Below, piece by piece: positions 37,387 to 46,292 of a stretch of DNA of 51,181 nucleotides. Source of the DNA: an uncultured Alcanivoracaceae bacterium (GTDB lineage Bacteria > Pseudomonadota > Gammaproteobacteria > Xanthomonadales > Marinicellaceae); contig CAMZLQ010000014.1 of NCBI GenBank assembly GCA_947311585.1, positions 1 through 51,181 of the forward strand, in the 5' to 3' direction. The position numbers and the translations under genes were made by a program. Within the stretch, counting starts at the first letter, position 1, and each line of letters opens with the position of its first letter. The notes below the pieces were generated by a model. That model worked only from the letters and a program-made list of their open reading frames with translations. It made no database searches and was not told the origin of the DNA.

Positions 37387-38399
37387 AAAAAACTGACTTT
37401 CACTTTGACTTACCCAAAGAGTTAATTGCTCAACACCCAACCAAGCAGCGAACGCAATCTCGGTTATTGGCGTTAAATAAAAACACTGGTCAAACACAGA
37501 ATTTAAAATTTCCAGATATTATTCAATTCTTAAATAAAGGGGATTTACTGGTTTTTAATAACACAAAGGTCATCCCTGCTCGCTTGTTCGGCAAAAAAAT
37601 TACAGGTGGCAAGGTTGAGGTTTTTATTGAACGATTGCTTAATGACAATTCTGCCATTGCGATGTTTAAATCCAGCAAAGCCATTAAACTGGGAACACCA
37701 ATATATTTTAATGAACAAACCATTCTTCCAACCGCCAGAAAAGGCATGTTTTTCTTAATCGAAACACAAAATAATGCATCATTAACTGAATTAATGGATG
37801 AATTCGGGCATATGCCTCTACCTCCTTATATCCAACGCAAAGATGAACTTGAAGACAAATCCAGATACCAAACAGTTTACGCCAAGGAAAAAGGTGCAGT
37901 GGCCGCACCTACTGCAGGTTTGCATTTTGATGAAGAGTTATTGCAACAGATTGAAGACAAAGACATCAATACCGCTTACGTCACCTTGCACGTTGGTGCT
38001 GGTACATTTCAACCCGTAAAAACTGACTCCATAAATGACCACATCATGCACAAAGAATGGTTGCACGTCGATGATGAAGTGGCACAACTTGTTAAACAGA
38101 CCAAAGCAGCAGGCAATAAAGTCATTGCCGTTGGCACAACCGCCGTGCGTTGTTTAGAAACAGCCAGTCAATCTGGTGGAATCAAAGCCTATACGGGCGA
38201 TACCAACATTTTTATCTATCCAGGCTACCAATTTAAGGTGGTGGATAAACTATTAACCAACTTCCACCTACCCGAATCCACCCTTATCATGCTGGTATCA
38301 GCCATGTGTGGGCGTGAAAACACTTTAAATGCCTATAAATACGCTGTTGAAGAAAAATACCGTTTCTTTAGTTATGGGGATGGCATGTTTATTTTTTAG
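37383..38399 (+). CDS. queA: S-adenosylmethionine:tRNA ribosyltransferase-isomerase
   Basis: QueA transfers the ribosyl part of SAM to 7-aminomethyl-7-deazaguanine in tRNA, making epoxyqueuosine. The 338-residue protein starts MKKTDFHFDLPKELIAQHP and has the family motifs LVFNNTKVIPARLFG (about 55-69), GAVAAPTAGLHFDEELL (about 170-186), HVGAGTFQPV and the C-terminal NFHLPESTLIMLVSA. The ATG at 37383 is chosen over GTG 37362 by the GGAG site five bases upstream. No tgt, yajC or secDF follows; the downstream gene is convergent and overlaps by four bases, so queA is separated here from its common partners. Confidence 0.97.
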   Translation: MKKTDFHFDLPKELIAQHPTKQRTQSRLLALNKNTGQTQNLKFPDIIQFLNKGDLLVFNNTKVIPARLFGKKITGGKVEVFIERLLNDNSAIAMFKSSKAIKLGTPIYFNEQTILPTARKGMFFLIETQNNASLTELMDEFGHMPLPPYIQRKDELEDKSRYQTVYAKEKGAVAAPTAGLHFDEELLQQIEDKDINTAYVTLHVGAGTFQPVKTDSINDHIMHKEWLHVDDEVAQLVKQTKAAGNKVIAVGTTAVRCLETASQSGGIKAYTGDTNIFIYPGYQFKVVDKLLTNFHLPESTLIMLVSAMCGRENTLNAYKYAVEEKYRFFSYGDGMFIF

Positions 38400-38707
38400 C
38401 TTGGGTTTATACAAAATCCGTATTTTTTCAAATCTATTGCATTGTTCAAGCCAAATTTGATTCCTTCGGCTTTGAGTAATTCGTATTGAATTTCAAACTT
38501 TTCATCTTTAAGGGATATTTTGCCTTGGATATTAACTATTCGATGCCATGGAAGCTTGTATTTTTTGCTGCAGGTGTGAATAAGGCGAGAGACTCGACGA
38601 GCATTGCGGTGATTGCCAGCAAGCAGTGCAATTTGCCCATAGGTAGCGACTTTTCCTGCGGGAATGGATTGAATTATTTCTATGGCTTTTTCTGAAAATG
38701 GAGTCAT
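38396..38707 (-). CDS. Alkyltransferase-like protein (ATL)
   Basis: A 103-residue protein of the MGMT/Ogt C-domain family. The active-site PCHR of true alkyltransferases is replaced by PWHR (53-56), the substitution of ATL proteins such as E. coli YbaZ. They bind O6-alkylguanine, flip it and recruit nucleotide excision repair rather than removing the group. Other conserved parts: IPAGKVATYGQIALLAG and GNHRNARRVSRLI with the arginine finger. It converges with queA, overlapping it by four bases at the 3' ends. Confidence 0.9.
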   Translation of the reverse strand: MTPFSEKAIEIIQSIPAGKVATYGQIALLAGNHRNARRVSRLIHTCSKKYKLPWHRIVNIQGKISLKDEKFEIQYELLKAEGIKFGLNNAIDLKKYGFCINPS

Positions 38708-42722: not shown

Positions 42723-43439
42723 TTAGTCATTATTCCTTTTTCGACCATTCACACTTATGCTGCCGCTACCACCATCAATTAAATTAAATTTTCCGTGTAA
42801 ATTAGTGATATTTATAGCACCTGAACCATCATCAATTGAAACATCTCCTGTTACCTTATCAATGGTAATTGTGCCAGAGCCATCATCAATGATAACATTT
42901 CCGTCAATATTGGATAAGTTAGTATTGCCAGAGCCATCATCAATAATAACGTTGCCACCAATATTATTAAGGCTAATCGAACCCGAGCCATCATCGATTA
43001 CAACTGAATTATTAATATCTGATAGAGTTATTGAACCCGAACCATCATCAATTTCAACTTTTAAATCCCGTGGAACAAAAACAGTTAAATCCATTAGTAT
43101 ATTATGTCTTGAAAAAGTAAAGAGGCTTTTCTTATTCAATGCTTTTAAAACTATTTTTGAACTCTTTGAGGCAATACTGAACTCCATCTTTTCATCAAAT
43201 GCTTGTTGTAACGCCTCGAGGTTTTTATAATCATCGGAATGAATAATCGCTGCAACTCTCACTTTATCACTATCAGTGCCCATTATATTTAATGCTCCAG
43301 AACCTGTATCAATAAATATTGACGAATGATTTAACACTTTTATGCTTAATTCCTTTTCAAAACTTGCATCACTTTTGGCAAGTGTCAATTGAGTGGTAAA
43401 TAACAGTATTATCAGTAGTATTTGCTGTATTTTTATCAT
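42723..43439 (-). CDS. Secreted DUF4097-like protein with 18-residue DDGSG repeats
   Basis: A 238-residue protein with a signal peptide (hydrophobic 5-20, cleavage near LA-KS). The first part (30-125) is a beta-sheet domain. From 130 to 226 it carries five consecutive copies of an 18-residue repeat whose core is DDGSG (starting at 131, 149, 167, 185 and 203) plus a sixth (DGGSG, 222) at 19 residues; an outlier TGSG copy is at 45. The pattern alternates short hydrophobic strands with Gly-Ser-Asp turns, which fits a right-handed beta-helix or calcium-binding stack like the putative adhesins of DUF4097. In DNA this is a 54-bp tandem repeat. Function is unknown. Confidence 0.75.
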   Translation of the reverse strand: MIKIQQILLIILLFTTQLTLAKSDASFEKELSIKVLNHSSIFIDTGSGALNIMGTDSDKVRVAAIIHSDDYKNLEALQQAFDEKMEFSIASKSSKIVLKALNKKSLFTFSRHNILMDLTVFVPRDLKVEIDDGSGSITLSDINNSVVIDDGSGSISLNNIGGNVIIDDGSGNTNLSNIDGNVIIDDGSGTITIDKVTGDVSIDDGSGAINITNLHGKFNLIDGGSGSISVNGRKRNND

Positions 43440-43495: not shown

Positions 43496-43966
43496 TTACA
43501 TTAATTTTTTCAATAAACCACCACAGGCTTCTTGCAATAAGTCCAAAACCAAATCAAATCCACCAGCTCCGCCATAATAAGGATCAGGGACTTCGCAATA
43601 GTCTATATTTTTAGCAAAACTCATCATTTTATATAGTTTTTGCTGTAACTCTGGGCTTGGGCAAATTACCTTTAGATTTTCATAATTGTCATCATCCATG
43701 GCAATAATATAATCAAAATGATTAAAGTCACGAGATTTAGCTTGTCTGGCTCTTTGTATTGTTAAATCAATTCCTCGTTTCTGAGCAAATTTAATCGAAC
43801 GAGAATCGGGTAAACTACCCACATGATAACTGTGTGTTCCAGCTGAATCCACTTCAAATAAGTCAGATAAACCTTTGTCATTAATCAATTTTTCAAACAC
43901 ACCTTGTGCAGAAGGCGAACGGCAAATATTACCCATGCAAACAAATAAGACTTTGGTTTTATTCAC
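43496..43966 (-). CDS. Low-molecular-weight protein tyrosine phosphatase
   Basis: A 156-residue LMW-PTP. The active-site loop CMGNICRS (C10 to R16) matches C(x)5R, and the general acid D is in EVPDPYYGG (about 122-130). The remainder follows the family with SAGTHSYHVGSLPDSRS at about 41-57. The gene overlaps dapB by four bases (ATGA) on the same strand. It may dephosphorylate protein tyrosines or arginines; no tyrosine kinase gene is adjacent. Confidence 0.95.
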   Translation of the reverse strand: MNKTKVLFVCMGNICRSPSAQGVFEKLINDKGLSDLFEVDSAGTHSYHVGSLPDSRSIKFAQKRGIDLTIQRARQAKSRDFNHFDYIIAMDDDNYENLKVICPSPELQQKLYKMMSFAKNIDYCEVPDPYYGGAGGFDLVLDLLQEACGGLLKKLM

Positions 43967-44694
43967 GATAAACTCTCAATATAATCACCCATGGTATAAA
44001 ATCCTTTATCCTGTTTCACTAACCATTTTGCTACATCCAACGCACCTTGTGCAAAGATAATTGGGTCTTTTGCCGTGTGAGTAATACTCAAATTTTCACT
44101 GTCATTATCTAACTCAATAGTGTGAATACCTGCAACCTCTCCTTCGCGAATGGAAACAATTTCTATATTGTCCATGGTAAAATTATCTTCATCAAGGCGT
44201 TTAATCATACCATGAGGTTTAATGGTTTTAGCCAAGGTGATGGCAGTTCCTGATGGCTTGTCTGCTTTATGGACATGGTGAGTTTCAGTGATTTTAACCT
44301 TTGTATCGACTAATTTAGTGTAATTTGACAACAAATGGCGAATAAGATTAATTGAAAGAGCAAAATTTGAAGCCCAAAGAATAGGAATATGAGCCGAGGC
44401 ATTTTCCAAATCATTATAATGTTTTTTGTTCAGTCCTGTAGTACCAGAAACTAAAGGCACTTTATTATCAATGCAATGTGTTAAAACCTTTTCAAAAGCA
44501 CTCGGAGTGGAAAAATCGATCCAAATATCCGCTCTTGTGCACTCTGAATTGATTTCAATACCATCCAAAGTAAAAGAAGAATGTTGTGAGACTAAGCCAC
44601 ACGAGACAGTGGTATTTTTATCTTTCTCAATAACACCAACTAACCTTTGCCCTATTCTGCCACTTATTCCTGCTATACCAATTTTTAAATTCAT
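43963..44694 (-). CDS. dapB: 4-hydroxy-tetrahydrodipicolinate reductase
   Basis: DapB reduces the DapA product to tetrahydrodipicolinate in lysine and peptidoglycan synthesis. The 243-residue protein has the nucleotide-binding GISGRIGQR (about 9-17), the motif LVSGTTGL and the active-site TETHHVHKADKPSGTA with the catalytic histidine pair and lysine. It is about 30 residues shorter than E. coli DapB (273), with a gap in the central part. In most relatives it follows dnaJ directly; here a repeat-bracketed gene lies between. Confidence 0.93.
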   Translation of the reverse strand: MNLKIGIAGISGRIGQRLVGVIEKDKNTTVSCGLVSQHSSFTLDGIEINSECTRADIWIDFSTPSAFEKVLTHCIDNKVPLVSGTTGLNKKHYNDLENASAHIPILWASNFALSINLIRHLLSNYTKLVDTKVKITETHHVHKADKPSGTAITLAKTIKPHGMIKRLDEDNFTMDNIEIVSIREGEVAGIHTIELDNDSENLSITHTAKDPIIFAQGALDVAKWLVKQDKGFYTMGDYIESLS

Positions 44695-44715: not shown

Positions 44716-44757
44716 GTAACACGGAGGTTCACGGAGAAGACACAGAGTTACACTGAG
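44716..44757 (+). repeat. Left arm of 42-bp inverted repeat around the orphan gene
   Basis: The arm begins GTAACACGGAGGTTCACGG and itself consists of two similar half-units (core ACACGGAG then ACACAGAG). It pairs with 45124-45165: the first 21 bases are identical and 38 of 42 match. The orphan gene stop codon lies two bases beyond this arm. Confidence 0.92.
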
Positions 44758-44759
44758 TT

Positions 44760-45119
44760 TTATTTTTTATTCCAAATTTTTTCTATCTTTTTATCGCCCC
44801 ATAGAGAAAGAAGGTTTGTTTCAAAAGCAGGATGAGCAACTTCAGAGAACCAGTCTACGTTAATTCCATCAAAAGGCATTTCAAGGAACTTAACCACATC
44901 ATTGTAACCACTCATTTCCTCATCAATTTCATAAAAAGTTCCTTCAGTATCAACTCTAAATCCAATACATATTAAATCTACACTAAATAAATCTCTTTTA
45001 AATGCAAAAATTTCAATGACAGAATCCCATAAGAATTTTTCAGTACAATTATGTTCTTTTATGTAATATAGATATTTATCATCAAACCTTAACTGAAGTT
45101 TTATTTTTTCATTCATCAA
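44760..45119 (-). CDS. Orphan protein bracketed by inverted repeats
   Basis: A 119-residue acidic soluble protein with no signal peptide or membrane segment. The N-terminal half looks beta-rich (KIKLQLRFDDKYLYYIKEH, then WDSVIEIFAFKRDLFSVDLI), the middle has FYEIDEEMSGYNDVVKFLE and the end AHPAFETNLLSLWGDKKIEK. I do not recognise a named domain with certainty; similar small proteins are listed only as hypothetical in my memory. The frame exactly fills the space between the two repeat arms (stop two bases from one, start four bases from the other). The arrangement suggests a mobile or laterally moved cassette inserted in the dnaJ-dapB junction. Confidence 0.65.
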   Translation of the reverse strand: MMNEKIKLQLRFDDKYLYYIKEHNCTEKFLWDSVIEIFAFKRDLFSVDLICIGFRVDTEGTFYEIDEEMSGYNDVVKFLEMPFDGINVDWFSEVAHPAFETNLLSLWGDKKIEKIWNKK

Positions 45120-45123
45120 GTTT

Positions 45124-45165
45124 CTCTGTGTAACTCCGTGTTTCCTCCGTGAACCTCCGTGTTAC
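45124..45165 (-). repeat. Right arm of 42-bp inverted repeat around the orphan gene
   Basis: Reads, on the minus strand, the same as the left arm with four differences in 42 bases. Together the arms and gene form a unit of 450 bases (44716-45165). No target-site duplication of normal length was found at its outer ends. Confidence 0.92.
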
Positions 45166-45179
45166 AAAAATTCAAACAA

Positions 45180-46292
45180 TTACTCACCCTTTAGTTTATC
45201 CATAAATGATTTAACCGAATCAAACCAGCCTTTTTCCTTGGGGTTATGTTTTGAACCGCCTTTTTGGATGGACTCTGAGAGTTGTTTGATTAACTTCTTT
45301 TGGAAATTGGTTAAGTTTACGGGTGTTTCAACATTAACTTGGCAGTGTAAATCACCTGTTCGGTGTGAACGGACGGATTTTACCCCTTTACCACGAAGTT
45401 TAAAAACCTTACCAGATTGTGTTTCCGATGGAATTTTAAGTTTAACCTCGCCATCAAGGGTTGGGATTTCTAGCTCACCACCCAGTACCGCTGTGGCAAA
45501 GTCAATTGGCATTTCGCAATACAAATCATCGTTATCACGTTTAAAAATAGGGTGTTCACGAACGTTTATATCTACATATAAATCACCAGTAATACCTCCT
45601 GCTGGTGCGGCTTCTCCCTCACCTGACAACCGGATTCTATCGCCATTATCTACACCAGCAGGCACTTTTACGTTAAGCGTTTTAGTTTCACGTTTGCGCC
45701 CTTCTCCATTACAATGGTTGCAAGGATTTTCAATCATTTGACCTTTGCCCTGACAAGTTGGGCAAGCTTGTTGTACAGAAAATATGCCTTGTTGCATACG
45801 CACTTGACCCACACCACCACAGGTTGTGCAACTTGTGGATTTTCCATCTTTTGAACCCGAACCATCGCAATAATTACAACTAACCATGGTTGGAATTTTG
45901 ATTTCTTTTGAGACACCTGTCACCGCTTCTTCCAAATCCACCGTGACTTCTATTTGTATATCACGTCCACGTTGTTGCTGTTGACGTCTTCCCCCTCCAA
46001 AAATATCACCAAAAATGTCACCAAAAATATCACCAACATCAGCACCATGGAAACCACCACCTGGGCCTTGGTTAACACCTTCAGGACCAAACTGATCATA
46101 ACGAGCACGTTTGTTATCATCTCTGAGTGTGTCATAAGCACGATTAACTTCTTTAAATTTATCTTGGGCATCGGGTGAATCGTTACGGTCGGGATGGTAC
46201 TTCATCGCTTTGCGTTTGAACGCTTTTTTTAATTCAGGTTTTGTCGCATTTTTGCTCACACCCAATATTTCATAATAATCTTTTTGTGACAT
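45180..46292 (-). CDS. dnaJ: Chaperone DnaJ
   Basis: A 370-residue co-chaperone that stimulates the DnaK ATPase. J domain (1-70, HPD at KYHPDRND), Gly/Phe-rich linker (about 75-105), zinc domain with four CxxCxGxG motifs ([32 protein letters not shown], about 140-210), then two substrate-binding beta domains. It follows dnaK with a hairpin between them. Confidence 0.98.

Follow-up and report, generated by a model that had tools for sequence, protein, structure and literature searches.

What is the 450-bp block that separates dapB from dnaJ in an uncultured Alcanivoracaceae bacterium, in which a short orphan gene is framed almost without remainder by an inverted repeat? The window, i.e., the whole stretch of DNA analyzed here, comprises 51,181 nucleotides (contig CAMZLQ010000014.1 of assembly GCA_947311585.1), and belongs to a fragmented draft genome of 203 contigs and 85% completeness (hereafter G000). 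The features concerned are as follows.

43963-44694, minus strand: dapB, a flanking host gene (Pfam DapB_N, DapB_C)
44716-44757, plus strand: left arm, GTAAC and four inward-pointing heptamers of the CRCRGAG type in steps of 10, 11, and 10 nt; its outer end faces the dapB start (profile match 44716-44761)
44760-45119, minus strand: orphan ORF of 119 codons from TTG at 45119 (118 aa from ATG at 45116), without a Pfam or NCBIfam family
45124-45165, minus strand: right arm, an inverted copy identical at 38 of 42 positions, the outer 21 exactly; its outer end faces the dnaJ stop (profile match 45122-45165)
45180-46292, minus strand: dnaJ, a flanking host gene (Pfam DnaJ, DnaJ_C, DnaJ_CXXCXGXG)
38394-38432, no strand: a site empty in the window, where a relative (G010) carries an inverted arm pair of 518 nt (L140), located by flank mapping and alignment of the joined flanks

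Elsewhere in the window, a 238-aa ORF with repeated DDGSG motifs (42723-43439) lies between lysS-like and dapB-region genes.

A preliminary description of the locus had reported a 42-bp inverted repeat, a 119-codon frame filling the gap with two and four bases to spare, and arms that are themselves doubled half-units. The coordinates and identities of the repeat and the fit of the frame are confirmed, and the repeat is extendable to 53 nt at 85% identity. Each arm is indeed a doubled half-unit of 21 nt, and is better read as the four heptamers listed above. Outside the heptamers lies G[TG]AAC and inside them an A/T-rich stretch (25 arms compared); the conserved outer end of the arms in this genus is TAAG[GT]AA (43 distinct arms). 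The arms also carry Shine-Dalgarno (SD)-like GGAG/AGAG sequences, and Rfam gave no match in seven loci (43,289 bases). The exact inverted 21-mer is the only one in the window, but 20 windows generated from a dinucleotide-Markov model already contained exact inverted matches within 1 kb of up to 13-19 nt, so that the 21-mer by itself is only modestly unusual and not decisive. Chance is excluded for these arms because of their extension to 42 nt with 38 matches and their conservation in relatives.

For the enclosed gene, the ATG at 45116 is a likelier start than the TTG at 45119, and the SD-like AGAG of the inner heptamer lies directly upstream of this ATG. The gene has a GC content of 28%, versus 37% for the window, and no Pfam or NCBIfam family matches it above the cut-off. 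One orthologue each is found in G009 (99% protein identity) and G010 (64%), while the other eight of the 11 genus genomes lack it; all three copies are at dnaJ-dapB and a second site was never seen. Between G000 and G010, dN is 0.22 and dS 2.2 by the NG86 method, giving a dN/dS of about 0.1 with dS saturated; therefore, the protein is under purifying selection. Among 369 sampled genomes from the class there was no convincing orthologue, the matches in G769 and G723 (E near 0.01) being rejected as lacking a convincing ORF, and none was found in phages and viral contigs. A distant homologue is encoded on a Niveispirillum plasmid by an unannotated ORF of 109 aa (L484:1429-1758), with 33.8% identity over 77 aa, an E value of 3e-4 and an hhalign probability of 96.6. 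This homologue has no arms; therefore, the orphan is cargo with relatives elsewhere and not inseparable from the arms. The two proteins may belong to a small undescribed family. A fold of the orphan predicted by AF2 had a mean pLDDT of 45.8 and was discarded.

In a fragmented metagenome assembly, where some arms lie near contig ends, an unrelated ORF could come to stand between random similar sequences by chance or by misassembly. An identical block layout is, however, present in the two relatives mentioned above, the orphan is under purifying selection, and the arms recur in 10 of the 11 genus genomes. These observations refute such an artefact, the probability of which we consider practically nil.

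Comparison of the dnaJ-dapB junction within the genus reveals several states. G000, G009, and G010 carry both the arms and the orphan. G002 has a decayed solo arm, and G003 and G005 have an arm remnant beside another repeat, which in G005 is followed by other sequence up to a contig end. In G004, G006, and G008, dnaJ and dapB are tight together and armless. The comparison is interrupted by a contig end in G007, and G001 gave no dapB match. The insertion between dnaJ and dapB proposed in the preliminary description is thus borne out, the junction being occupied in the window and tight and armless in three relatives. Between G000 and G010, 16 positions changed in either arm, and eight of them changed identically in both, a pattern that pairing between the arms, conversion, or their joint replacement would produce.

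Such parallel change is also what might be seen if the arms were functional sites kept in place, i.e., a long RNA stem or an array of operators by which the enclosed gene or, for solo arms, the neighboring gene is insulated or regulated. The SD-like sequences, the persistence of arms at orthologous sites across the genus, and the lower divergence of heptamers than of spacers (10.7% vs. 27.3%, biased since the detector fixes three heptamer positions) are consistent with this. On the other hand, the solo arms at dnaJ-dapB in G002, G003, and G005 are decaying, sites are known in both occupied and unoccupied states, and pairs enclosing no gene, with loops of 6-130 nt, occur in many phyla (see below). 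A purely regulatory role is accordingly quite unlikely.

The arms are not confined to this junction. The arm pattern, with at most one mismatch, matched nine of 200 relatives, all of them in the window's genus (nine of its 11 members), and an arm profile matched 10 of the 11 genus genomes with 156 matches by per-genome counts. Among the 150 arms listed, 33 neighboring pairs lie less than 4 kb apart: 12 inward, 4 outward, and 17 in the same direction. A heptamer-chain scan of 100 of the 116 arm regions (the other 16, from G007, being left out) gave 148 arms, with 18 inward, 6 outward, and 27 same-direction neighbors within 3 kb. What lies between inward-facing arms is the orphan, a GxxExxY gene, a two-gene cassette, or membrane ORFs, and the composition of the heptamers varies between genomes. 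Arms are mostly unpaired, and the many solo arms frequently lie at a distance of 10-60 nt from a gene end. That arms always bracket a gene is therefore not the case, since only 24 of the 150 listed belong to inward pairs; arms without a bracketed gene are one of the two observations that the preliminary description had named as refuting its reading.

Several arrangements at these arms may be recorded. An arm-flanked two-gene cassette of unknown families is found in two genomes (L115 in G009:C30 and L147 in G005:C11); it was rejected as evidence of movement, as both copies adjoin an aldehyde-dehydrogenase-like gene by ORF reading. Composite arms, in which a CACAGAG-type arm is followed directly by a CGCAAAG-type arm, occur at L112, L072, L115, and L119, and give the impression that one element has landed next to or inside another. 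Another dispersed inverted repeat of the GTAAGGTGGGCTTGCCCACC type adjoins arms at L038, L039, and G000:C193 (L014). At L140 in G010, the inverted repeat runs about 29 nt past the arms in a different, GGCTTCCGCCACAGCTACGCTGTT-like sequence, suggesting one repeat element nested in another. At L123, L130, L133, and L128, the arms are accompanied by genes that resemble toxin-antitoxin pairs and GIY-YIG nucleases.

Furthermore, a three-heptamer pattern of this kind is found in other phyla in at least 118 stretches. The 80 loci listed come from Verrucomicrobia, Planctomycetes, Acidobacteria, Bacteroidetes, Chloroflexi, Spirochaetes, Omnitrophota, archaea, and others; among them, neighboring arms point inward in 51 cases, outward in 18, and the same way in 14. 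Many of these inward pairs enclose no gene, their loops measuring only 6-130 nt, and two enclose a GxxExxY gene (L243 in Acidobacteria and L280 in Bacteroidia), the arms of L280 having the same 10/11/10 spacing as in the window. The preliminary description had mentioned such repeats around unrelated orphan genes in many phyla: unrelated small genes are indeed enclosed within the genus, and the arrays do extend to many phyla including archaea; elsewhere, an equally tight frame surrounds GxxExxY genes.

To our knowledge, GxxExxY genes (TIGR04256; PF13366, PDDEXK_3) are scattered through prokaryote genomes and have no function assigned. When inward arms were sought within 150 nt of these genes, 43 of 67 loci of the phylum sample had both arms (15 had one, 9 none), as did 17 of 27 loci of the cross-phylum sample (8 had one, 2 none). 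Neither sample is random: the former consists of the 30 best-scoring loci and 40 further ones, with three of 70 dropped at edges, and the latter of the 30 best-scoring, with two of 30 dropped at edges and L466 as a duplicate of L280. Under narrower heptamer rules, both arms were found at 31 of 67 and 14 of 28 loci. Controls gave both arms at none of 20 dapB genes of other genera (one arm at 1) and at none of 200 mock genes in the same loci (one arm at 9), nor at any of a further 143; an internal control of four and three genes was too small and was set aside. GxxExxY genes are present in 37 of 44 arm-selected genomes versus 63 of 398 in the phylum sample, the two sets being differently drawn. 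The patterns used detected no GxxExxY gene in viral contigs, where arm patterns do occur.

The two arms of a GxxExxY element correspond closely to each other and to the protein. The seventh base of the heptamer agrees between left and right arms in 63 of 63 elements, and the spacing at 45 of 46 loci (mean 8.9 and maximum 19 in 5000 shuffles). On the GxxExxY tree, the seventh base requires four changes over 88 rows (shuffled mean 20.6, minimum 17) and the full arm class 21 changes (shuffled mean 51, minimum 45). GxxExxY genes whose arms have 10/11 spacing are not a single clade on this tree. G009 alone holds a unit with CACAGAG arms (L433) and units with CGCAGAT arms (L439); therefore, the code follows the element and not only the host. 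In the same genome, three tandem GxxExxY units, each with a CGCAGAT left arm, are located 426 bp apart on one contig (C111; L439, L443, and L445), two of the three copies containing a stop. The correlation could arise without recognition, if gene and arms were simply inherited together as a block, but recognition of the arms by GxxExxY is, we infer, the stronger reading. As far as such comparisons of sequences go, GxxExxY appears to be the usual gene of these arms and to have evolved together with them.

What kind of protein might read such a code? In GxxExxY, the catalytic positions E27, D67, E77, and K79 are kept in 99, 100, 96, and 99 of 100 sequences, respectively. The predicted fold (pLDDT 67.3) had no Foldseek match at E ≤ 0.001, and no PDB sequence match was found. 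The top VIA-align matches are mostly nucleases, i.e., BglII (Z 6.1), CinB (6.0), EcoT38I (5.1), and VRR_NUC (4.9), with all Z scores below 8. The predicted fold is thus only consistent with a PD-(D/E)XK nuclease and not decisive.

The window element shares many of these properties. Its arms consist of inward-pointing CRCNRAK heptamers spaced in steps of 8-12 nt and have the same subtype and spacing (10/11/10) on both sides, and a single gene leaves only 2 and 4 nt to the arms. These are three of the four features by which a GxxExxY heptamer-arm element is delimited here, the fourth being that the enclosed gene is GxxExxY. Intact GxxExxY units of the genus have the window's geometry; for example, L433 consists of an arm (1015-1039), an ORF (1042-1413), and an arm (1423-1447), and L435 of an arm (1450-1485), an ORF (1489-1866), and an arm (1876-1911). 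The 10/11/10 arm design itself is shared with the GxxExxY genes at L138 and L161, both broken, and at L280; within the genus, the copies in such arms (in G010 and G005) are all broken. The enclosed gene of the window has no TIGR04256/PF13366 match and is thus not GxxExxY, and G000, 85% complete, has no match to that family. For these two reasons the window element is filed only as a non-autonomous relative.

Evidence on mobility comes from the comparison of sites. At a site shared by G003, G005, G007, and G010, upstream of a gene that we take to be valS-like, G005 and G007 have intact GxxExxY units with CGCAAAG arms, and G010 has a broken GxxExxY gene with 10/11/10 arms. In G003, a remnant of GxxExxY lies between 10/11/10 arms 151 nt apart; therefore, gene-less pairs can arise by gene loss. 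In Sphingomonas parapaucimobilis, a GxxExxY unit is inserted into the fabD-fabG pair; in S. paeninsulae and Rhizobium, which lack the unit there, the two genes are direct neighbors. An examination of 129 arm pairs gave no consistent target-site duplication, the only sign being a weak excess for 4 nt at a single offset (13, versus a mean of 5.5 and a maximum of 11 in 200), and no excision or transposition of arm elements was observed in this sequence comparison. Mobility is supported by the relics, the site comparisons, and the operon insertion. For the window block, the suggestion that the cassette moves as a unit is supported in part: the insertion is absent from the junction in some relatives, but the orphan is found at one site only and its Niveispirillum relative is armless.

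Could another transposase move the arms? They might be generic miniature inverted-repeat transposable element (MITE)-like or REP-like sequences mobilized in trans, with GxxExxY and the orphan as frequent or chance passengers. It would fit this that most arms are solo, that the genus shows several kinds of cargo (GxxExxY, membrane ORFs, a two-gene cassette), and that one arm, in G009:C94, has a Y1 transposase nearby. However, the subtype and spacing of the arms track the GxxExxY tree, no consistent target-site duplication was found, and Y1 genes do not generally accompany the arms: in G004 (74% complete) arms are present and a Y1 match is lacking, while G006 has a Y1 gene and no arms. Y1/RAYT was rejected as the partner, for among 41 Y1 matches in the 11 genomes, only that in G009:C94 lay closer than about 2 kb to one of the arms listed. 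We regard mobilization by another transposase as unlikely. An enzyme gene always encoded near the arms, for which the preliminary description suggested looking, was likewise not found: Y1 transposases are not generally co-located with them, and GxxExxY sits inside such arms elsewhere.

We therefore favor, with moderate confidence, the reading that the window block is a small inverted-repeat element with arms of the GxxExxY type, which GxxExxY would recognize, and that the copy in the window is non-autonomous and kept by the host. GxxExxY, as the putative mobilizing enzyme, would nick or cut the arms, perhaps as an extruded cruciform, and this cutting would insert or excise the unit in short intergenic gaps. 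The heptamer steps of 8-12 nt correspond to about one helical turn, and the protein may read the array and process the inverted pair. The window copy, with CRCRGAG arms at 10/11/10 around a different gene, would have been fixed at dnaJ-dapB before G000 and G009 split from G010, and may now be kept because the host uses the orphan gene. Since G000, at 85% completeness, has no GxxExxY match and the 10/11/10-armed GxxExxY copies of the genus are broken, the element has probably ceased to move and is retained for its gene.

Inverted arms of 7-nt units are found around one more gene family. IVP four-helix-bundle genes (TIGR02436; L363-L392) are framed by inverted arrays of contiguous units of the GTAGGCA, GTGAGGG, AGTAGTGAGTAGTGAG, and GTGAGTA types, and the test for flanking inverted repeats was positive at 18 of 29 IVP loci versus one of 143 mock genes. 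These genes served as the specificity control for CRC arms, which occur at none of the 29, while dapB and mock genes were the control for flanking inverted repeats. We know of no IVP/TIGR02436 protein that is a nuclease; arms need not imply a nuclease, because this family has its own inverted heptad arms. IVP elements and the GxxExxY and window elements are thus alike in having inverted arms of 7-nt units, and differ in that the IVP units are contiguous, GTGAGTA/GTAGGCA-like, and without CRC arms.

More tentatively, and short of calling it probable, a broader view may be proposed. GxxExxY, a nuclease of about 125 aa of the PD-(D/E)XK type, may be the enzyme that founded a hitherto undescribed class of minimal transposable elements. 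It would read a code of heptamer letter and spacing and move the DNA enclosed, which would yield GxxExxY units, gene-less pairs, solo arms, and cargo cassettes like that of the window, with IVP elements as a parallel second lineage and a large hidden layer of single-gene elements in bacterial and archaeal intergenic DNA. On the sequence evidence, the GxxExxY arm family is a little-described and very widespread group of tiny single-gene elements. The strict match between protein clade and arm code makes the function of GxxExxY testable. If the proposal is true, it would explain the CACGGAG/CTCCGTG-type repeats of many genomes as well as how orphan genes enter and stay in tight operons, and would offer naturally occurring nucleases whose site code can be read.

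How does the window element compare with known systems? MITEs and mobile insertion cassettes have short inverted ends, no transposase inside, and an optional passenger gene. Integron gene cassettes are small, carry orphan genes, and have one site per cassette in direct orientation, in arrays. Arms around GxxExxY genes or around the orphan were not described in the literature covered, which left most subscription papers outside its scope and included the accessible parts of a MITE review (PMC10969869), a REP paper (PMC3733652), and a further article (PMC8934634).

The GxxExxY units are the closest: like the window element, they have inward, spaced CRC-heptamers with left and right arms matched in subtype and spacing, a single small ORF that leaves only a few nucleotides to either arm, and a location in short gaps between genes. 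The window element differs from them in its gene and in its CRCRGAG 10/11/10 arms, whose GxxExxY copies in the genus are broken. With MITEs and mobile insertion cassettes it shares terminal inverted repeats without an internal transposase and a passenger gene, but its ends are arrays of spaced heptamers, no consistent target-site duplication was found with them in 129 pairs, and a PD-(D/E)XK gene is all that the likely autonomous partner contains. The arms resemble REP/BIME sequences with RAYT (Y1) in being short, dispersed, intergenic repeats, while they pair only with each other, have no internal palindrome, and are not generally co-located with Y1 genes. Finally, the element is as small as an integron cassette and likewise holds an orphan gene, but its arms are inverted, dispersed, and not arrayed. 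The window element is thus not a GxxExxY element, as its gene differs, nor an integron cassette or a REP/RAYT unit, but a MITE- or cassette-like element with unusual ends.
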